Shown here piece by piece: positions 2,318 through 39,523 of a stretch of DNA of 64,000 nucleotides. The notes under the pieces were generated by a model. That model worked only from the letters and a program-made list of their open reading frames with translations. It searched no databases and was not told the origin of the DNA. This DNA comes from Centroberyx gerrardi (taxonomy: Eukaryota > Chordata > Actinopteri > Beryciformes > Berycidae). The stretch's first letter is position 1; the number at the start of each line of letters is the position of its first letter. The stretch lies in the NCBI RefSeq assembly GCF_048128805.1, contig NC_136016.1, positions 11,274,676 through 11,338,675 on the forward strand, given 5' to 3'. The position numbers were made by a program, and so were the translations under genes.

Positions 2318-5300
2318 GTAAGAAACTCAGAGGGATAAGAGAGAGGGCTCTGGGGATGAGGAACGTTGGAGAAAAGGGAAGTTGACTTTATTGCTTTGAG
2401 AATTAACTGACAGAACATCCAAGGCAAGTGCAAACATAGATGTTATCCATTTCTGTTTATTCAATGTTGGAATTACATGTTCACCACGAAAGACTTATTT
2501 GCTTAATGAAAATGTGTGAATAAATTGTCGTTACGGGGCTATAGCCTTTATGTCATGCATTGTGCGAGTGTATTGCATGTTAATGTGCAAAAATAGCAGA
2601 AATGCCATAGTTGGGAGTTTTGTTTCCATCAGTCTGTTAAAAAACAGAAAGGTAAAGGATCTCAGTAGGAAGCGACATGTTCCAGTCCTCTTCCATAGAT
2701 CACACTGGGGGGGTTCTTTTCTCTCTCACTGCTCACTGAAACAAAAACAAAGACAGTGACAAGCTGGGGAAAGTTTCTTCAGGAGTGTGTGTGTATGTGT
2801 GTAAGAGTGAGAGAGTGTGAGAGAGAGAGAGAGAGGGGGCCTCTGCTCTCTTTCAGTGCAGTGTAATCATTGACTATGTCCTACCTTCTGTGCATCATTT
2901 AATCCAGCCTCTAGGCCTTAATGAGAAATACCTATTTATTTAACCATTTCCTTTGTATATGGGTTGCCACTTGTGTACTTGTACTTAGTCCATCATATAC
3001 CACTTTATAATCAAAGTGGCTTATTCTACACCGTGCAACATGTGGTGTGCAATCAGTTATTTGCAAGTTGGCAGCCTTAGCATTTGGCATGATGACAGTA
3101 GTGTCTGTCAGGTCTGTTTAGCACAATAGGTCTCTGCCCATGGAAAGGTAGGTTGTCTGTGTAACCAAAATAGCTTTGCCACACTTTCCCTTTATGTTCC
3201 ACTTTCCACATGTCGGTGTCGGGCAGTAGAAACGGAGAGAGAGAGAGGGGGAAGAGTAAGGAGATGGGAGGAAGGAGGAGGGGGAGAGAGAGTGGGATTC
3301 AGAAGATTGGGCAGGGAGAGATGGAGAGTGGAGGAGGGGATTTCCAAACTCGCTTGTTCCCAGTTGCTCATGCAGACGTTCCCCGCTGAAAAGTGAGACA
3401 CCCTCTCCTTCTTTTCTTCCTCCGTCTCTGTATATGTCTCTCTCCCTCTCTCTCTCTCTCCATCTCCCCTGAGTCAGAGGTGGCATTGCTCTCAGCGCTG
3501 CAGACTCAAATGAGGGCCTGCATAACAGAGCTTTCCTTTTTTACCAGTCCTGACACATCACCTGGTGTGGGTAGTATTTTTAGACTCTAACCCCCGTGGC
3601 TGTGGATGTGTGTTTATGGTGTGGTACTAACAAAGAGGGATTTAGTTCAAGCTCTCTCAGTTTGTCTCAAAGCACGTTTGTGTGACGTTGCAGTCTATAG
3701 CGCTGGGTCAGTAAAATGTGTATACTGTATCTTTGTATTTGTGTGTGTTTGTGTGTGCAGGGGTGTGTATGTATATGCAAATGTACGGGGGTGTGTAGGA
3801 GGGTGGGTGGGGGTATGCATGCACATTAGGAATACGATAACTTATGTAAATGGAAAGGCTTTCATACTGTTTTACTGTTTGTTTCTCTGCTCGTAATACT
3901 TTGGGTGCAGTCAGAAGCAAAGTTGCATGCCAGTGTATTTCATGGTCATTTAAGTATCTAGACATACAGAAGGGCTGTGTGTGTGTGTGTGTAAGCCTGA
4001 TGAATACACTGCTGTAATTGGAGTGACCTGACTGTCAGTCTATGAACTCGGCCATCTGAGCAGGGTGGTTAGGAGCAGAATATAGACTTTGTTTCATATT
4101 TCATATCCAGTGTGCTCTGATGATCTAGTAGACTGAAATCTCAGCAAGAAATGAAATATGTATTGATCTCAGCATGTGGACTCTATTATGTCTCCCATTT
4201 CACCACAGAACAAAATCTATCAAAAGCATTCCTATCAAAACGGAAGAAAGTCTATCAAAAGCTCAGTAAAACATATACTACAATGTAAAAAATATCAATA
4301 AAACATACATTCTACAAAAATGTGCCATGGTCTGTAATAAACAAAAACAACAAACGCAAATGTACAACATATCTGATGTGGAGGCCTATCGTTCGTAGGG
4401 TTTCGATCTGTGCAGCTTTATGCAGAAGGATCTAATTTTTGCAGATGCAGCAATTGTAGATTCCCCCAGTGCTTTTTCTCTTGTATGTTCTAATATCTAT
4501 ACGAGAAATTCTATAAATTATCAATGCTGAGAGCCAGGGGATAAAATCCTGAAGGCCGAAGGTCGCAGCAGATCCCCAGAGCAGGTAATGTTGCAGGTTG
4601 ACTGCTCTTGAGCCTCTGTGGGGGAGGGTGCCAGCTGAAAAGTGAAAATGTTCTACTAAGAAATGAAATATTGCTTTAACTCTCCTCTCCCCAGCCGTGC
4701 CATGTGATTGATGAGATCAGAAAAACAATGGCTTTAAGTCTGCCTGTCCAACAGTGAATGCCAACACTGGTGTTAGGACTAAATCCACTGACCAGCGGCC
4801 TTTCTGCCCGTGTTTAGGCTAAACGCTCATTAGCTTCTGTGCCCGCACATTCCTCCAGCCGGAGGAGTGACTGACCGACTCCGTCTGGCTGCTGCTACAC
4901 CGAGGGGCATTAAAACCTTCAAGGGCTTTCCCAGACAAAAACAGTCTGCTCACAGAATGCTTTCACTCACAGCCGCAGTCAGCTGAGACTGCAGAAGTTA
5001 CAACCTAATTCAGTTTTAAATTTAGATGACATTACTTGCACATTTGTTATGGATAGGTGTGGTAAAAAACAGATTTTTGATCAAATGGCTATTATTGAAT
5101 TGTAATTGTATTTTCTTTTTTGGATTTTACTTGCATATCACACTGTAGGAATATTATCCTCCCGACTCCGCATAGTGGGCATGGATCATTTCACCAAATA
5201 CCCTTGCGGCCATTGGTTGCTAATATCCATTTATCTTATACCAGGCCAACCCGGAGCGTATGGGAGATTGTCAGAGCTATAGAAAGGTTGGCTCTCATGT

Positions 5301-7171
5301 TCTCCATTGGAGTCCAAAGGCTTTAAGATGCTAAGGAGGTGTCCTGCCCTCTCTGTCAGCCCTCTGACCCACCCCCCCCCCCCCCCCCCACCCCACTTTC
5401 TTCTAATGGTTGAGGCCCCGATCACCATGACAACAACGGGAAACGGGGACTGCACATACACCAAGGGGGCTTTAAAAAAATGTTTGAGACCCCTCTGCTT
5501 CTCCTAGTTAAGTCCCTGCATAGTTTCAGTCATCTTGAGTCCAGAGGGATTAGAGCTTATTCACTTATCTGGAAGTTAGAGGGCAACAACTGGACTCCCC
5601 CTGACCAATAACAGTGGCATGAGGAATGCATCTGAAAGGGCAGGACTTCCAAACATTCTGTTAGTGAGAAGGTGTAGGTTGAGATTCACAGATACTCTTG
5701 ATTCTGTGTGGACCTTTGGGGTGAGGAATTCTCATCTGCCACAAAAACCCCATAACTCCCATCTTGTAGATTTTTCACTTGAATCAAAAGTTTGTATAGT
5801 TCTTTAGGAGCTATGGCACAGTCCAAGATCTAATGACCCATGGAAGCCAGTTCAGACCTATTGTTTATGTAAGAAACCATGAATGTCTACATGAAATCCC
5901 TAACAAATTACATTTTGAGTATGCAAAGTTTACTAACAAGGTTTTCTATGTTGAGACGGATCACAAGATTCCTTGAACCTTGTTGTATGTTTCTAGTTTG
6001 ATATAGGGTTGTAAATATGTGATAAAAATTAACCGAGGGCTCTTGGCTTAGTCAGCCTCTTTCCATGCCGTTCAGAAAGGATTGTGTGTAATAAATATTA
6101 TCATGGATTAATTACCTTTTCTCAGTGCCTAGAGAAATCACTTAAGATTCATCCTACCGGCTCTGTTCATTTGGATTGTGATTAATTCTGCCTGTCAAGG
6201 TTGACTTTTGCTTCATTCAGGCAAACTGACACGCATTTCAAACTACAATAATTGAATGAGTTGAGAAGACATAGAATTTCATGTCTCAATTTCAGTCTAT
6301 CCCACGACACAGTGAGAAAATCTAACTGATATAATATTCTCAGTGTTGTGTTTAACTACCATTACGAGCTCAAGGCAGGTAGTTTGATTCTCTGAAGTGT
6401 TTTGTTGCGCTGAATTATTTAATTCTTTAGTTAAAACTCTACTACCTTTATGACAGAAAGCATGCTGTTTAAAAAAAGTAACACCATATAGAAAGAGAGA
6501 GATTACTGTCCAGTTCAACTTTATAATTGCCTGCTGCAATATAGATTATGACCAAAATGTCCTTTTATATGTGATAGAATACATGTCAATTTCTTTTGCT
6601 TGTGTTTTCACACTGTTGAGAGCATATCATATTAACATATTGCAGTACCAGATTTTTCTGTCTTTGTGGGTTATTATGAGTCTATAAGTAGGGATCAGAC
6701 TGATTTTGAGTGTGCTAATTAAAGTCTGGTAATCACAGCTAAATCTCAGTAGTAGCCTAGTAGGCTGTCAGTCCACTTGGCACGTTGGCAAATGACTTGG
6801 CATGGCCGCCATGGCCCCTACTGGTGCCAGGCTGGTGGAGACTCGTAATGAGGCTGGCCAGCAGGCCCACTACCGGCCATTCTTTCACCTTATTCATCAC
6901 CTTCGATAGTGGACAGCCCATTTCTCTTTTCTATCTTTGTTGTGATAACAGGACGGTTGAGAGGGTTACAAAGTAGGTGAAATGCACAAAAGGGAAAGTT
7001 CTGGTTGGATTTGATCCTACACAGCAGGGTTGCACCAACAAACTGCAAATTTGCATTGCCTATACTGCATTATTGATCCTGTGTACACCTAGTGGGAATT
7101 GCAGACTTGGAACGCTTTGCCTGACTCCTTCACTCATATAACTTTGAGACTTGCTAGAGAATCTGAAACTC

Positions 7172-26870: not shown

Positions 26871-26876
26871 TTTATT
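26871..26876 (-). terminator. selenou1: Poly(A) signal of selenou1 copy A
   Basis: AATAAA on the minus strand, about 57 bases beyond the SECIS-like element. It gives a compact 3'UTR of about 380 bases that contains the whole SECIS. Confidence 0.65.
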
Positions 26877-26932
26877 GACAGCAAATATTATTCATGGTAC
26901 ATCTTCTTTCATTATTAATGCTGTGGTCTGAG

Positions 26933-26996
26933 TTGGTGTTAAGCATCAGGTCTGCCTCCTCAGTAGTTTAGACACAGACTATCATGGACACACCAA
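26933..26996 (-). ncRNA. SECIS-like element in selenou1 copy A 3'UTR
   Basis: Read on the minus strand: a lower stem TTGGTGT pairs with ACACCAA. An internal loop is followed by the SECIS core, with ATGA (complement of 26982-26985) opposite TGAT (complement of 26945-26948). The upper stem includes GTCTG paired with CAGAC, and the apical loop carries AAA (complement of 26967-26969). These are the defining features of a eukaryotic SECIS, which recruits SBP2 and EFSec to decode UGA as selenocysteine. It lies about 260 bases past the stop codon of a gene with an in-frame TGA. Confidence 0.88.
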
Positions 26997-27251
26997 CAGG
27001 CACAACACTAACAACACAGCAAAACAACAAACAAAATATAGTCTCATCTGATCACTATACAGCTGAATGTTCAGATGCAATTGCAGATTACAAGAAGGCG
27101 GCATTTCCTCATCTGATAAACATTATTTTTCCCCTCACAAAATCAATTAAAAGTGCAAATATCTAAAAAGCTACACTAACGAAATGTCCAGTTACCATGC
27201 AATACTCTATAGCCTTGACTTCACTTCTACCTCCAAGATATTCTGACTAAT

Positions 27252-30200
27252 CTATTGGCTTTTAACAATTTTCTTTGCTGCCTCCAGGATGGAAGTAAGG
27301 TCCGCTGTGTCTCCAAACTCCTTCTCCCTGTGCTCCAGTAGAATACCCTGAATAAGAGAGAAGCAGTCAGCAATGCTAGTTCACACAATGAAAGACAGTA
27401 CAGAAAACATTTTTTCTGACACTGAGACAACAAAGTTTGATTAATATCACAAAAGATATGAATTGTAAATCATGAAAAATATATAGAAAGTGAGCAAATA
27501 CAAAGTATCATGAATTACCTGTTTCCCTGCACCAATCACGTACAAGCCACCAAGAATGAAACCCTCTCCATTTTTGTTACCCTGGTAACCTTTATTCCGA
27601 GCATGGACCAAGTTATGCAGCACACCTAGACGAGCAAGGCCCAGACCCAGACCCATTCTCCTCTGCTTAGGCCCATAGAAAATTTGCTGCAAATTAGGAA
27701 AAGTCAGGAAAGAAGGAAGGAAGGAAATACGGAAGGGAGGACAGAAGAAAAAAAGTGAAAACAAATGTGGAAATGAAATGAAAACAAAGAAACAAAGAAA
27801 GAAGATAATTGAAAAGATACTTAATAATTGAAGAGACTTTTCTCCTAATCACTATTTGCAGGCAATGAGTGCTAGTGAAACCGTGTATAAAAAATACCTT
27901 GTGATCCACAAAGATCTCCCCCTTGAAGTAGGCTCTGAAGTTCTGGACCTCTGTGCCGATGTCCTCCTTCACCACGGCGTACAGAGGGACCCCAAGCTCA
28001 TCCAGCTGGGGCTTCAGAGAGGACAGCTCTGCAGCCTCCTGGAGGAGGGGGATGGACACAAACAGAGGCTGATTTGCTGATATTCAAAGGTGCTACGCGT
28101 AGCATTTTTAAACGCGTATCATTGTCAAATTAATCATGACACTTTGGTATAATTACCTTAAACAAATGAGACTGTGGTCGAGATGATTGGTAGCCTCTAT
28201 CTCACGCCAGTGGTACTGTTAGTGCTAATGTTTCTTAACATTAAGACCACATTTCCCATAAACCCCGTTGCTTCCTCTCACAAAGTGAATGTTACTTCTC
28301 CAATCAAGAGTTTTCTCCTTGCTTTACTGAACAGGATAAACATGTTGGAAATAATTTTTCCATAGACCTTTCACCATTGTGAGAGTCTTTAGTTTGAACT
28401 GGAGGAACAGCGCCCTGTTCCTGTGTTGTGCCATGAAGCAATCTGCTGTAAAGCAATCCAGCACCTATCCCGTGAAATCTGACATAATGTAAAATGCAGT
28501 GTCAAGGTCGGTAGAGGCTACTATTCCTTACCTCTCTGCAATGGTCTCGTTTGTTTACAGTAATGACACTTACAATTTATTGATGTTAAAATGCTACATG
28601 TAGCACCTTTAACACACATAAAAATCATAAAATAACATAAAAATCTACAGTTGACAGGGTCGATTACATTTAACAATTTTCAGTAACAACAGGGTCAGAG
28701 TTAGGGTACCGAGCATCAAACAAGACACAATGATACATCCCTTCTTTTTTTCCACACAATAACACACAAAAATGTACACCTACAAAATCAGTGACCTCAT
28801 TCAAATCTGCCTGCCACCACTGTGTAGATATCATCAGTTTGTTCCAGTGCAGGCTGTGTGGTGTTGAGTGGAGAACAATGGCAGACAGGACACATGGGGA
28901 TAAGGTCACTGTGTCATGTTGGTGGACAGAGGTTTACAGTTGGAACTAGAAATTATACTTATGAATCACACGGATATCCAAGTGACAGATGTGTCCTGTT
29001 TCTCAGTTTTAGCTTCTCTACTAAGACAACAAATATAACATAGTGATATATTACGCCATGTGGTGGACGGTTTACTCCAAAGAACCTTACTTACAAATAA
29101 AAGTGCATACTATTTTCATCTTGGCAACCCCAGTGGGAAATACTGAATATGTCTTTAAGTTCAAAGTATATGTACTCTCTCTCTCTCTCACACACACACA
29201 CGCATGTACACACAGACAGACAGAGTACCTCTCTGCACAAGAATCATCCAGGGCGCCTCACAACCATGACCACTGCTCCGTTCCTCTCCCACAGAGTTCG
29301 GCCTTTCACTGTTTTCCCATCTGCAGAATCACACAACCCATATGAATTGAATATGATTTCAGGTCAAAATCAACAGCAGTTCGCATCCCTCTTTGGTGGT
29401 GTTAGGCGGTCAGAGCTATCAAAAAACATTAATTCCTACTGAGAATAACACAGTCTTCATTCAATATTCAATGTATTGTGTTAAAAAAATGTTTTCCTCT
29501 ACAACTACCACTCTATCAGCCATAAGAGTGTAAACATTCTTTGTTAGGAAAAACAATTTTCTTTCCATCACCTCCTGTTGTTGTATTGAGGTCTGTGTTT
29601 TCCAGTTGCTCCAGAGAGGCCAGGACTGACTTGGTCAGGAATAAGTCAGTGTTGGCTAGAGCCAGGGTGACCAGCACTGTAGCCACAACTGCCAGACCCA
29701 CACACCACACACTGAACAGCTCCCCCTCCAGGATGGAGGAAAGCACTAAAAACAAGGAATATTAATATTCATTAGTTGCACAAAAGGTATTTGCATAGAA
29801 CACTTATTTGATTTAATACACAAAAAGCTGAAGCAATTGAGGATGGTTCATATTCAACATTGATTAAAGTTGACTAAAATTATAGTGTAAATTCTGTTTA
29901 AACTAAATCATAATTTGTGCTCTGTAGTGTTGCACGTCCAAAACCTCCTCTGCCTGTGCATCTCTGTATCCCTGTGTTTTCTTCTGTTTCAGCAAAAAAT
30001 CAAAAATACTTGAGTGCTATTATTTCTCTCTGCAAAGCCTCTCCTGAAGATGATCTTAGTAGGGCTTTTCACTCAAAACAATTCAAGGCAACACTGTCTA
30101 ACCATGCAGAACACAATGACTCAGTTCCCTTGATAAAAACTGTTTGTTTCACATATTCAAACTATATACTGTCGTTTCCGAGGTCGTCACTGGAATGTCT

Positions 30201-30688
30201 GATAAGGTTCCGGCACCCGGGCATTTACCATATTACCAAGTTGTTCTGAGGGAGGATAACATAAGGACAGATATCTGAAGGACCACACCCTTAGTCTGTG
30301 CCACCAAGTTTGTATATCAGCCATGGCTGCCCTTCACCTCCACAAAAACATTGTTTCTCCCGGGATTGTTTCAGTCTCTTTCCTCAGTTGGTTCATGCAA
30401 GAGAGAGCACAGACTTGATACCAAGCTGGCACAAAACTTATTAGTGACACGCCGCTGGCAGTTTCTTCTTGACTTCACAGAGCTCCAGAATGTATTAAGT
30501 ATCATAAGCAACATCATGCACTCATTGTCCTGTAGAAGTCAATAAAAGCGAGTTTGCTTAAAATATCTAATGTCACACTTAATGCCCCTCATTAGAGGCC
30601 CTGAGCTTACTTCTGTTATTATATTGTATTATGAAATAATTTTATAAAAAAAGTTAAATGAATAGTACTAACTTGCTGCCGTAGACAT
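27252..30688 (-). CDS. selenou1: Selenoprotein U1 (PRXL2A/FAM213A family), tandem copy A
   Basis: Exons: 30688-30673 (tentative), 29745-29572, 29320-29229, 28038-27898, 27686-27519, 27347-27252, for 228 residues if TGA is read through. Residues about 15-35 form a hydrophobic N-terminal segment (SVWCVGLAVVATVLVTLALA) followed by the family's ANTDLFL. The thioredoxin-like peroxiredoxin-2 fold follows: LWERNGAVVMVVRRPG-U-FLCRE, GVPLYAVVKEDIGTEVQNF, YFKGEIFVD, FYGPK, GEGFILGGLYVIGAGKQ and GILLEHREKEFGD. The active motif is UxxC (U89, C92), where mammals have CxxC. The family is linked to redox control. Exon 2 starts with an acceptor and has no in-frame ATG, so an upstream start exon is required. 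ATG at 30688 with donor GCAGCAA|gttagt fits the phase but is unproven. Exons 2-6 are secure. Confidence 0.9.
28086..28610. mobile_element. MITE-like element with ~25-bp terminal inverted repeats
   Basis: The segment begins AAAGGTGCTACGCGTAGCA and ends TGCTACATGTAGCACCTTT. The ends are inverted repeats over about 25 bases with few mismatches, and each TIR holds its own palindrome (TGCTACRYGTAGCA). The 525-bp interior has no coding potential. It sits in the intron between exons 3 and 4 of selenou1 copy A. A target-site duplication is not obvious (flanks ...GATATTC and AACACA...). Probably a non-autonomous DNA transposon. Confidence 0.6.
28840..29005 (-). repeat. Interspersed repeat copy 2
   Basis: Reverse-oriented relative of the 7172-7345 repeat, with the blocks GAAACAGGACACA, GGATATCC, GTGTCCTGT and TGCCATTGTTCTCCACTCAA on the minus strand. 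It lies in the same intron as the MITE-like element. Confidence 0.5.
29244..29246 (-). other. selenou1: In-frame TGA, predicted selenocysteine codon (copy A, residue 89)
   Basis: The minus-strand codons read CCT GGA TGA TTC TTG TGC AGA GAG, i.e. P-G-U-F-L-C-R-E. The mammalian homologue has Cys at the TGA position. The frame continues correctly through the splice to the next exon, and the 3'UTR carries a SECIS-like fold, so I read this as recoding, not a disabling stop. Confidence 0.9.
29834..30339. repeat. 0.5-kb direct repeat, unit 1
   Basis: Shares an ordered series of blocks with 32194-32703: CAATTGAGGATG, GATTAAAGTTGACTAAAATT, GTAAATTCTGTTTAAACTAA, TGCAGAACACAATGACTCAG, ATAAGGACAGATATCT and TATCAGCCATGGCTGCC. 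Both units have the same orientation and nearly equal length (506 vs 510 bp). It lies just upstream of exon 2 of copy A. Confidence 0.7.
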
Positions 30689-31071
30689 TTCAAATCTACG
30701 AACAAGAGTCCAGTAAGATCTGTCGTCTATTCCTCCCCAGCTTCAGCCTCTACTGTACAAACAGCTTCAAAATGCTGCACACATCTCTGCTCACCATTTA
30801 TTGCAATGTCATCTTGAGTGGGAGGGCACCAAAAGTGAGTAAGAGGTATATGGCATGAGCGTTTGGCCAATCCCAGCTCCCAAACCTTCGATATGATGGA
30901 AACTTTCACAGGAAATCAGACTGACCTCATAAGATGTTTGTGTTTGAACAAGTTGGCTACAGTAACTCCAAAAATGGCTTTCCCAAATGGAATTCAGCTG
31001 ACATATCTTCTCAGGGAGGGGTTATTTGAAGAATAAAAATAAAACCCAGACGTACAGCACATGATGACATT

Positions 31072-31077
31072 TTTATT
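31072..31077 (-). terminator. selenou1: Poly(A) signal of selenou1 copy B
   Basis: AATAAA on the minus strand about 66 bases past the SECIS-like element of copy B. Only about 380 bases separate it from the candidate start codon of copy A, so the two genes are tightly packed head-to-tail. Confidence 0.6.
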
Positions 31078-31142
31078 GTTCAAAAGGTCATGGTCTCTTG
31101 GCTCCCGAGATAACCTAGCTGCAAGGGAATAATAAAGGGGAA

Positions 31143-31210
31143 CTGAGTGTTTGACATCAGGCCTGCTCCCTCTATGGAGTTTAGAAACAGACCATCATTA
31201 ACACACTCAG
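31143..31210 (-). ncRNA. SECIS-like element in selenou1 copy B 3'UTR
   Basis: Read on the minus strand: lower stem CTGAGTGT pairs with ACACTCAG. The core is ATGA (complement of 31195-31198) opposite TGAT (complement of 31156-31159). The upper stem starts GGTCTG/CAGGCC and the apical loop carries AAA (complement of 31180-31182). The architecture and the motifs ATGATRGTCTGT and TCTAAACT match the copy A element, although the lower stems differ with compensating bases. Confidence 0.88.
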
Positions 31211-31592
31211 AGACCTTTATAACACATTCATACCCTGCAGGCCAGGCTTCCCAGAATCCAATGAGACCACTGCACCAACAAACTCAAAAGTCCTCTGTAC
31301 ACTTTTCAGACATGTAAACTTTTTTTTTTTTTTTTTTTTAGATACATCCCCCTCTCAAGCTACATAAGCTTTCACATTGCAACTGTCACACGAAAACCTC
31401 TAAACTCCAATTTAAGTGTTTTTCAACTTCAATAGTGTATTAATGTGGGTCAGGACCTTATTGTCTGATAGAAAGGCCTACATTCTAAAGTTTCTAAAGT
31501 TTAATTTCAAAGATATGATTGTAAAGCTGTTTAACTACTTAACAGGATTTAAGGATATGACTTTTATCTGATAGCGGTAATATCATAGAGCA

Positions 31593-34580
31593 TTATTTCT
31601 TCTCTAGAAGCACAAGTTCCTGTGGCATTCTCCTGGCCGCTCGGATGACATCCAGAATGTTGACCTTGTCCCCAAACTCAATCTCTCTGTGCTCCAGCTT
31701 TATTCCCTGGAAGAGAATAAACACAATGGGTGTAATGAGAAATAGTTTGACTTTTATGCAAATCAAGGGAAGGCTCTTGATATCAAGTCATAAAAAAGGA
31801 AAGCCTGAAAGTTATAAAGTAAAAAGTCCACCCCAAAACACAATTTTTTTTAAACTATCTAAAGCTCAAAAGGTAAACATCAGGTTTTGGTGTCAGTCCC
31901 TCAGAATCAAAGAGCGAGGGCTTCTTTCTAGACTCACTGTTTTGCACCGATGTTCAACAATCATACTGTGAGAAATCCATCGTAAAAGAGGCAGAGAGAC
32001 CAATTTCTGACAGTAGCCTCTGTAGACCACAATGCAATGCAGCCACAGGAGGTGTTGTATTTTGAGTAAAGGACGCCTCTTCTCAACTGGAAAAACTTTC
32101 TCTCTTGCCGTTATTATGCTTTCGCTATCACCATCACTCTCTCCACCTAAACGTACTGAATGCCAATCAAACAACAAAATCAAGCTGGGTAGCCAATTGA
32201 GGATGACTCGTATTAAACATTGTTGATTAAAGTTGACTAAAATTATTGTGTAAATTCTGTTTAAACTAAATCATAATTCATTCTCTGTAGTGTCACACAT
32301 CCCTGCTGGCCTAGGACTTAATCCCACCAAAACCTCCTTGTTTCAGCAAAAGATCAAAAATACTTTGGGAGTTGCCTTACTGACTCCAGCAGAGCTGTTA
32401 TTTCTGTCTCCTGCTGATGATCTTAGGGCTTTTCGCTCAAGAGTGATTCAAGGCAACACTGTCTAAACATGCAGAACACAATGACTCAGCTCCCTTGATA
32501 AAAAAACCCCCACTATTTTTGTTTCACTTTAAACGATTGTCAGTTGTTTCAGAGGTTGTTACTGGAATGTCTGATAAGGTTCTGGCACTCTTGGCTAGTT
32601 TTTATTTTTAACTTGTTATGAGAGAGGGTAACATAAGGACAGATATCTTAAGGGCCACACAGTATGGGAAACTAAGTTTATCAGCCATGGCTGCCTATCA
32701 CCATCATTGCTACTTAATGTAACAACTTCACACCTGTTCTCTTGGGTTTGTCAAAAGGCATTCTGGGAAATGTAAGAAATCATGAACTTAAGTAAAAGTA
32801 GATGAGGAAAATTGGAGGGAAAGTGGGTACACCAAAAAACACATCACGAAATAACTCCTGAAAATGCATTGAACATCACAGATTGATCTTGGTTACCTGT
32901 GATGTAGGTTACCTGTTTTGTCAGCCAATAGAAACCAAGATCAACCAATCACAGATTGCAAAAGCATGCTTTTTAACTAGTAGAAGTCAGTCCAACCTGA
33001 AAAGCTGGTCTGTGTTTGAAGGGTGTGCTGGCTTGCCTCTTCTATAATTAGTAAAGGTATCACTAGTAAAACATTTCATCATTATGTAATTGATTGTGTA
33101 ATGATGATTGTTGTTGTTGGATTATGTCTGTGCCAACTGTTGAAGTTTTACCTGCTGTCCTGGTCCAATGACGAACACTCCACCGAGGACAAAGCCCTCC
33201 CCGAAAATGTTTCCCATGAAACCGTTCTTGAAGGCCCTCAGGCCGTTCATCCACACCCCCACACGGAGGAACGCAAGGAGACCCATCTTCCGCTCACGGG
33301 GCCCATAAAAACGTCTCTGCAAGCAAGCAAACAAGAGGACTTCAATGTTTCAGTAAGGCCTAAATTGATTCTCACAGATCTTGAATGACTTCAGTGTATT
33401 CAGAAAGTATTGGTGCTGGAACTGGCTCAGTCCCCAGTTACCATGACCGGTAGCATGATCAGTGGTTCTCGTATGAAAGAGGACCGCTGTAGCAGAGAAA
33501 GCTGACCAGACAATAAACCAATTCATTACAGAAATAAGCTGCACCTTTTCATCCAAGAAGACCTCGCCCTTGAAGTAGGGTCTGAAGTTCTGGACCTCTG
33601 TGCCGACATCCTCCTTCACCACGGCGTACAGAGGGACCCCAAGCTCATCCAGCTGGGGCTTCAGAGAGGACAGCTCTGCAGCCTCCTGCAGCCAGTGAAC
33701 GGTGAACAAAAAAAATTCTGAAAACCTCTGACAGGGTTTTGTTCATTGCCATAGTATAATAGTACTGCAATACCTTGACAAAAACTACTACTGCTGTTGT
33801 AAATATTCTCAAATATTGCAGTGATAGCATAGGGGATTTTAAAAAACTAGGATAAGGTCACTAAATTCACAATTGAGTACCATCAGACAGACAGTGTGTC
33901 CTAATAATAATAATAATAATAATAATAATATTAGTGATTCCTCATTAAGGCATTACTTTTCCTGAGGGAAACACATTTGAGACTTGTGAACCTGGATCCA
34001 GCTGAGGCACTGGACATAAACAAATGGAGTAAAACATCATCACACTGAAGGGACAGGATCTTACGAACATATTACCTCTCTGCACAAAAATCATCCAGGC
34101 CGCCTTACAGCCATGATTACAGCCCCAGACTTGTCCCATAGAGATTTGGCTCTGAAAGTCTTTGCTTCTGGGTGAAGAAATGAGGTGAAAGGGGAATTAG
34201 GCAATACAATAGACTGAATGCAGAACAACAGTAATTTCACAGTGCTTTAAGATACAAGGAAATCAATAAACGATTATAACAAAAATGAAAAACAATGACC
34301 AGCTTCATTAGCATTAGTATTATTATCAAACAATGGAATAACCAGTCACAGAAAACAAGACATTAGTGCAGACATTTGAAGAGTGAAAACAATCAGTGCT
34401 AGGAAATTTGCACTTGTTGAGCTGTATTGTCTTACCTCCTTTCAAAGTTTTAAGGTCAGTCTCCTCTAAATGTTTGAGAGTGGCTTTCAGCGGTGGTGTC
34501 AGAAACATATCGGTTAAAAAATTCATAATACCAGCAACGAATGCGCCGACGGCCGCCACGGCGCGTGCTACGACGGCCAT
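31593..34580 (-). CDS. selenou1: Selenoprotein U1 (PRXL2A/FAM213A family), tandem copy B
   Basis: Exons: 34580-34436, 34167-34076, 33685-33545, 33316-33152, 31706-31593, giving 218 residues with TGA read as Sec (U74, C77). The ATG at 34580 has A at -3 and G at +4, and the frame opens directly into an Ala/Val-rich hydrophobic anchor (VVARAVAAVGAFVAGI). The order of family motifs matches copy A: LWDKSGAVIMAVRRPG-U-FLCRE, GVPLYAVVKEDVGTEVQNF, YFKGEVFLD, FYGPRERKMG, GEGFVLGGVFVIGPGQQ, GIKLEHREIEFGD. The C-terminus (LVLLEKK) differs from copy A. Exon lengths match copy A for exons 2-3 (92 and 141 nt) but not elsewhere. The TGA plus 3' SECIS argue for a working selenoprotein rather than a pseudogene. 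The exact teleost paralogue suffix is unknown. Confidence 0.93.
32194..32703. repeat. 0.5-kb direct repeat, unit 2
   Basis: Second unit of the repeat described at 29834-30339, in the same orientation, located in the last intron of copy B. Its position relative to exons is not the one it has in copy A, so it does not simply mirror the gene duplication. Confidence 0.7.
33902..33931. repeat. (AAT)10 microsatellite
   Basis: TAA/AAT triplet run in the intron between exons 2 and 3 of selenou1 copy B. Confidence 0.9.
34091..34093 (-). other. selenou1: In-frame TGA, predicted selenocysteine codon (copy B, residue 74)
   Basis: Minus-strand codons read CCT GGA TGA TTT TTG TGC AGA GAG, the same P-G-U-F-L-C-R-E context as copy A but with a different Phe codon. 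Both copies keep TGA, with sense codons maintained downstream. Confidence 0.9.
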
Positions 34581-38400: not shown

Positions 38401-39523
38401 AAAAAAATAGTAGCATGAAGAATATTTTTATAGGTTTTTATTTCATACGTATATGGGTTCAATGGTCTAAAAGGCTCATTATGGATGAAGGAAACTCTGA
38501 ACTGAAATTGTTTATGTGCCAGCATGGTATTGCCTTTCATTGCTACACCAGTGATACATCTGTCAGTAAAACCCAATGACTTAAGTAAGTTGGTTGTATT
38601 ACATTACTGCTGATGTTCAAGACAGGATGTCTCAGAACTTTCTTCATTACACTTTGATAAAAATGAAGTTGGTTTACTAAATTGTTCCTGAATGAATTTC
38701 AAGACAAATTCAGCAGTCTTTGGTATTTTAACAGATAATATCCAGGCTGTATCTAAAAATGAAGGCATTGTCTTTGATCCAAGTTTAAACTTTGAACAAT
38801 GTTCCAAAAAGCTAGTCCAGTCTTCTCCAACTCAGAGATTTTGCCAACCATAGATTGGTCCTGTCTCTCATTGACAAAGAGAGAGTTATACATGCTTTCA
38901 TGTCTTCTTCTCTTGATTACCGTAACACTTTATTTACCTGTCTTGACCAACAAGCTGTTGCACGGCTTCAGATTGTGCAAAATGCTGTAGCAAGGCTTTT
39001 GACTATGACTAAGAGAAGGGACCACATTGCACCCTTTTTAGCACCCTTACATTGGTTGCCTGTCAGTTTTAGAATAAGATTTTACTGGCAACGTATAAGG
39101 CTTGTCAAGACCCTGCCCCTACCACATCTCTGACCTCTTAACCCCTCATGAGCCTGCGTGCAGCCTTAGATCCTCAGACAGCTCCCAAGTCCAGGCTAAA
39201 GACAAAAGGTGACTGGGCTTTTGCTGTCACAGCTATCACGGCCGGTGGCTTTGAAATGCCCTGCCTGAGGAGCTTAGACTGGCTAAACCGGTGTCATCCT
39301 TTAAGGCACCTCTCAAAACCCATTTGTACACAAAGGCCTTACATAATTTCACCTGCATGTTCATCCTGCATTTTTACCCTTCTTTCTCATTGCTGCGTTT
39401 TTTTTCAGTTATATTTCTTTTTGATTGCCTGTTTGTTAAGCAGGTTGTAACTTTTGTTTTTAGTTTTAATATTATTATTATTAGAATCATCATTATTATT
39501 CGTAGTTGTAGTAGTAGTAGCAA

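Follow-up and report, generated by a model that had tools for sequence, protein, structure and literature searches.

Described SelU1 genes and the locus studied

In eukaryotic selenoproteins, a selenocysteine insertion sequence (SECIS) recruits the selenocysteine (Sec) machinery to recode UGA. Selenoprotein U (SelU) is described in a cysteine (Cys) form in human and mouse (PMC3473315, accessible part), and duplication of SelU1 in fishes has been published as SelU1a, SelU1b and SelU1c, with SelU1c attributed to genome doubling and SelU1b to a later percomorph duplication, the latter on the basis of its lack in zebrafish (PMC3316567). In the accessible part of that paper, the term tandem is used of SelW2a/b and GPx5/6 and not of SelU1, the term 'gene conversion' does not occur in its text, and a title-level search of the open-licence literature found no title on SelU1 gene conversion or matching tandem SelU1 pairs. 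Here, an analysis is presented of a 64-kb stretch of the Centroberyx gerrardi genome (the window, C20:11274676-11338675), which carries two adjacent genes of the PRXL2A family, A and B, and of a second pair, C and D, on C15. Taken together, the data make it likely that A and B are working SelU1 selenoprotein genes, that the tandem duplication is older than a duplication of the surrounding block, and that exon 3 was subject to later conversion; within this reading, Sec insertion, redox function, the equation of the block duplication with the teleost doubling, direction of conversion and the start of gene B are what we infer.

A tandem pair of putative Sec-type genes

Genes A and B lie head to tail on the minus strand, and the coordinates and strand that a first-pass annotation of the window had given for this PRXL2A-family pair were right. 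Both products match the Pfam domain AhpC-TSA_2 (E 1.9e-19 for A and 3.2e-19 for B). Exons were set by eye with the PRXL2 family as guide and no gene finder, and GT is present at all eight donors and AG at all nine acceptors of the two genes. Each frame contains a single TGA, at the same place in exon 2 and within the motif RRPG-U-FLC, and continues through its splices to a normal stop, in agreement with the U-F-L-C motif and onward frames of the first-pass annotation. Exon 2 is 92 nt long, and its skipping would therefore shift the frame.

Both strands of the window were scanned against 4227 Rfam families at curated thresholds (35 bits for SECIS_1). Only two matches in the whole window reached threshold, both of them SECIS_1 and one behind each gene, at 43.2 bits for A and 38.3 bits for B, and each is followed by an AATAAA, at 31077 (gene A) and 26876 (gene B). 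The SECIS-like folds previously described ahead of the poly(A) signals are borne out by this search, which the first-pass annotation had proposed as a check and in which neither site came out without a SECIS score. The 101-nt stretch around each element folded better than 200 of 200 shuffles (z -4.47 for A and -3.43 for B). The arrangement of gene and SECIS at both loci is beyond chance, and the identification of A and B as predicted tandem Sec-type SelU1 genes of the PRXL2A family, each with its own SECIS, is supported.

34580-31593, minus strand: gene A, five exons, ATG to TAA, one in-frame TGA at 34093-34091
34436..34580, minus strand: gene A exon 1, ATG at 34580
34076..34167, minus strand: gene A exon 2, Sec TGA at 34093-34091
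33545..33685, minus strand: gene A exon 3, identical at 132/141 positions to that of gene B; putative conversion tract
33152..33316, minus strand: gene A exon 4
31593..31706, minus strand: gene A exon 5, TAA at end
31145..31206, minus strand: gene A SECIS, 43.2 bits
29745-27252, minus strand: gene B, five exons to TAG, one in-frame TGA at 29246-29244
29572..29745, minus strand: gene B exon 1, the first recognised; opens with an acceptor and lacks an in-frame ATG
29229..29320, minus strand: gene B exon 2, Sec TGA at 29246-29244
27898..28038, minus strand: gene B exon 3, putative conversion tract
27519..27686, minus strand: gene B exon 4
27252..27347, minus strand: gene B exon 5, TAG at end
26935..26994, minus strand: gene B SECIS, 38.3 bits

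A second pair in a matching block

Searches of the genome (778,876,752 bases in 278 contigs) returned 17 matches with protein B and 15 with protein A, which outside C20 fell on C15, plus one on C5. The matches on C15 resolve into two further genes of the same form, lying head to tail, with AhpC-TSA_2 at E 5.5e-19 (C) and 2e-22 (D).

C15, L009 6692-8688, plus strand: gene C, five exons, one TGA in exon 2
C15, L010 2479-4712, plus strand: gene D, five exons, one TGA in exon 2, head to tail with C

The order MAT, SelU1, SelU1, PDZD7-like exon and LZTS2-like exons, on the same relative strands, is common to C20 and C15, these being the genes that the block comparison covered. Flanking C and D, the MAT exon is 91% identical over 69 residues and the LZTS2-like exons 63-70%, and the best match to the LZTS2-like exon outside C20 is the one on C15. 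The PDZD7-like exon on C15 is 44% identical with two stops inside the match, and the window exon used as query has no Pfam match itself.

The gene C SECIS matches at 40.9 bits, above threshold. When the SECIS elements of all four genes were aligned and given the structure into which copy A folds, 86.4% of 81 cells were paired and 5 of 21 pairs had changed on both sides; the paired percentage was reached in 11 and the covariation score in 10 of 500 shuffles, and six slid versions all scored lower. With only four sequences and a structure derived from one of them, this is supportive of a shared SECIS structure, not decisive. The stretch around the gene D SECIS folded alone was equalled by 2 of 200 shuffles; this element (L010 5520-5585, plus strand) carries UUCGAUG instead of the usual CUGAUG.

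Among the four copies the Sec motif reads RRPG-U-FLC in A, B and D and RRPG-U-LLC in C, where the exon with U-L-L-C lies at L009 7461-7552 (plus strand). The relative on C5 (L013 about 4424-6336, plus strand) has Cys at the Sec site, in RRFGCQVC, and we take it to be probably a PRXL2B or PRXL2C gene. Between C and D, a 69-codon ATG frame (L010 1098-1303, plus strand; C15:15483098-15483304) is rich in Arg, Ser and Ala and looks by eye like a mitochondrial presequence. This frame closes with CAG|GCAAGA, in phase with exon 1 of gene D. It could represent coding sequence of D ahead of exon 1, spliced at a GC donor, or else another gene; it had no Pfam match, and its genomic matches were weak ones on C22 (E 0.0035) and C1 (0.87).

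Order of the duplications

Outside exon 3, the quartet that joins A with C and B with D was best, and the one that joins A with B and C with D was rejected by the approximately unbiased (AU) test, both with protein (AU 0.0244 vs 0.976) and with codon positions 1+2 (AU 0.0026). When a provisional sequence of human PRXL2A was added as a fifth, ((A,C),(B,D)) was the best of the 8 trees tried, and both trees with A and B together were rejected (0.0217 and 0.0119). In genes A and C alike, exon 1 is 145 nt long and opens with the ATG; in genes B and D it is longer and has an acceptor at its 5' end, in the same phase in both; and the A-type copy stands ahead of the B-type copy in both tandem pairs. 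Because the quartet, the length and start of exon 1 and the A-then-B order agree, the tandem duplication most likely preceded that of the block, as read from these sequences. The block duplication was probably the teleost genome doubling, judging by saturated synonymous divergence (dS) and by zebrafish pairs such as pdzd7a/b and lzts2a/b. The published SelU1b scenario fits this genome less well than an early tandem duplication.

Exon 3 and probable gene conversion

Exon 3 departs from this pattern. Between A and B it is identical at 132 of 141 positions, as against 48-72% in the other four exons, and where both genes encode the same residue the codons are identical in 39 of 42 cases within exon 3 and in 30 of 74 elsewhere. 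The corresponding A-B dS is 0.10 in exon 3 and 2.79 elsewhere (2.61 by another pairwise alignment). The longest run of agreement between A and B spans 21 of the 352 polymorphic sites and was reached in none of 10000 shuffles; the only other notable run, between B and D, spans 10 sites and was reached in 247 of 10000. The ratio of sites joining A with B and C with D to those joining A with C and B with D is 12:1 within exon 3 and 11:24 outside it (p 0.0002). An exact A-B run of 80 nt starts 3 bases before the exon, and in the nucleotide quartet of exon 3 the A-with-B topology was preferred and the A-with-C topology had an AU value of 0.040. Local gene conversion between A and B over most of exon 3 fits these patterns best. 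No direction is favoured: the ratio of sites at which D shares the A and B state to those at which C does so is 18:8 within exon 3 and 36:27 outside it (p 0.35).

As a mechanism, a SECIS in the 3' untranslated region of each mRNA would recode the single in-frame UGA as selenocysteine, and the product would be a thioredoxin-fold protein with a U-x-x-C redox motif. The tandem duplication would have come first and the duplication of the block afterwards, most likely in the teleost whole-genome doubling, giving A-B on C20 and C-D on C15, and later most of exon 3 would have been copied between A and B by gene conversion.

Contrary evidence and alternative explanations

Several points weigh against this interpretation, for which all of the evidence is DNA sequence. 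As regards the blocks, MAT on C15 (91%) is not the closest copy, since C8 and one C2 copy reach 94%, and MAT therefore supports position only. Among the elements on C15, the gene D SECIS matches at 29.3 bits, below the Rfam threshold of 35, and the stretch around the gene C SECIS folded alone was equalled by 23 of 200 shuffles. For exon 3, the nucleotide quartet leaves the A-with-D topology standing (AU 0.109), no topology is preferred by the protein quartet, and the other five gene pairs also have a lower dS there (0.40-0.92, vs 1.34-2.00 elsewhere). Exon 3 dS is thus below that of the other exons in all six pairs, as would be expected if the likeness of A and B in this exon came from nucleotide-level constraint and not from copying, and constraint or older conversions may add to the likeness. 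That constraint is the explanation is nonetheless unlikely: A-B stands apart even within exon 3 (dS 0.10 vs 0.40-0.92), the contrast in site patterns (12:1 vs 11:24) is independent of overall rate, and the exact 80-nt run begins outside the exon. For the order of duplications, the rejection of A with B weakens to AU 0.056 when exon 1 is dropped as well, and three further five-sequence trees also stand, two that keep A with C and split B from D (0.175 and 0.173) and one that keeps B with D and places A with the human sequence (0.102). The weakened rejection, together with exon 3, in which A and B are each other's closest, and with the published percomorph duplication scenario for SelU1b, absent from zebrafish (PMC3316567, accessible part), would suit separate tandem duplications on each chromosome after that of the block. 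Such late duplications appear decidedly improbable given that A with B is rejected outside exon 3 by both protein and codon positions, that one form of exon 1 is common to A and C and the other to B and D, and that the A-type precedes the B-type in both pairs.

The remaining difficulty concerns gene B. Gene A has a complete coding sequence from the ATG at 34580, and in gene B the first in-frame ATG is codon 76, which lies in exon 2, 7 codons ahead of the Sec codon; the first-pass annotation overlooked that the start codon of B is missing from the exons as read, and its reading of the pair holds as far as two Sec-type genes are concerned. The first recognised exon of B opens with the acceptor TTTTTAG|TG. 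Gene D shares the position and phase of this acceptor and, in addition, has an in-exon start MGMW; this start is missing in B, where the alignment shows a gap of two residues, and a search of the stretch between A and B gave no homologue of the putative upstream exon of D. These features would suit a decaying copy, without its start codon and no longer expressed. However, B keeps 222 codons open but for the TGA, its SECIS exceeds the threshold, and B and D differ outside exon 3 with a nonsynonymous divergence (dN) of 0.29 and a dS of 1.72; dN is below dS in all six gene pairs outside exon 3, indicating purifying selection. Furthermore, the segment LSSxLEGELF upstream of the MGMW of D is identical in B and D at 9 of 10 residues and is therefore probably translated in both, which suggests a start of B further upstream. 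A donor scan upstream of B gave one site above 4 bits, with no in-frame ATG upstream of it. Its cutoff was so strict that an upstream exon could have escaped it: among the eight donors that A and B themselves use, only two reach 4 bits. Decay of gene B is on this evidence quite unlikely, and its start presumably lies in an upstream exon, perhaps with the ATG split by an intron. The reading of A and B as working SelU1 genes, with an early tandem duplication and a later exchange of exon 3, is the one retained below.

A duplicated noncoding block and other features of the window

A noncoding block of about 0.5 kb is also present twice within the pair.

32174..32702, minus strand: noncoding block copy 1, in the last intron of gene A
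29820..30338, minus strand: noncoding block copy 2, with its end 74 bases ahead of gene B exon 1

Of 491 gap-free positions the copies share 412, and they include exact islands of 20-31 nt; searching the genome with either copy returned these two places and no others (the search skips very common words). Most coding exons of the pair are less well conserved than this block, which was therefore copied later than the genes or has been under constraint; one possibility is that it is a shared control element. A transposon origin was considered and set aside, there being no terminal inverted repeat, no Rfam match and only two genomic places, although a common repeat is not fully excluded by a search that skips very common words. 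Rfam on the stretch holding the block gave no match except the gene A SECIS.

Around the pair, 6 of 10 open reading frames (ORFs) had Pfam matches, with one exon each for Fez1, PDZ, Dpy-30 and Frag1 and two for SAM synthetase, and 4 of 10 had none. The neighbours are presumably LZTS2-like, PDZD7-like and DYDC-like genes, and the MAT identity was borne out by a separate search. An ORF at 38816-39130 (plus strand) may resemble the end of a non-LTR retrotransposon reverse transcriptase.

Implications

The pair is a real one of selenoprotein genes from a known family; what is new, namely the matching pair on C15, a probable early date for the tandem duplication and the likely conversion of exon 3, amounts to modest, testable refinements. 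A wider scenario seems evenly poised between right and wrong: one tandem pair that existed before the genome doubling would be ancestral to the fish SelU1 copies, with the percomorph pattern of SelU1b due to differential loss, the window pair would have exchanged the Sec-adjacent exon, and the duplicated noncoding block may act as a control element common to both genes. Should the tandem arrangement prove older than the genome doubling, the dates in the published account of SelU1 would have to be revised, and conversion in the Sec-adjacent exon would distort gene trees that use the full SelU1 sequence. Routine annotation is prone to truncating such genes at the TGA, and copies are then easily missed or taken for pseudogenes. 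With four Sec-type copies, a single genome would also allow the functions of the copies to be compared.

Comparison with known systems

Human PRXL2A (FAM213A) belongs to the same family as the genes described here and is a single-copy gene with MAT1A and DYDC1/2 as neighbours and with Cys instead of Sec in the motif. The only solved-structure family matched by sequence was prostamide/prostaglandin F synthase (PDB 9us9; two distinct sequences, best E 8.2e-15), a more distant branch with Cys and not Sec, whose CxxC aligns in sequence with the U-x-x-C. A search of viral contigs with the gene A protein gave three stretches that fit a pattern, none of which encodes a relative. In another family, salmonid selenoprotein P has four paralogues, the diversification of which has been related to vertebrate evolution (PMC6301783, accessible part). 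The closest described genes are SelU1a, SelU1b and SelU1c of bony fishes, which, like those here, contain Sec, have a SECIS and occur in more than one copy, with one copy attributed to the teleost genome doubling; in contrast to the accessible part of that account, the present genome has four copies in two tandem pairs, placed in matching blocks, and the tandem step is most likely older than the duplication of the block (PMC3316567).

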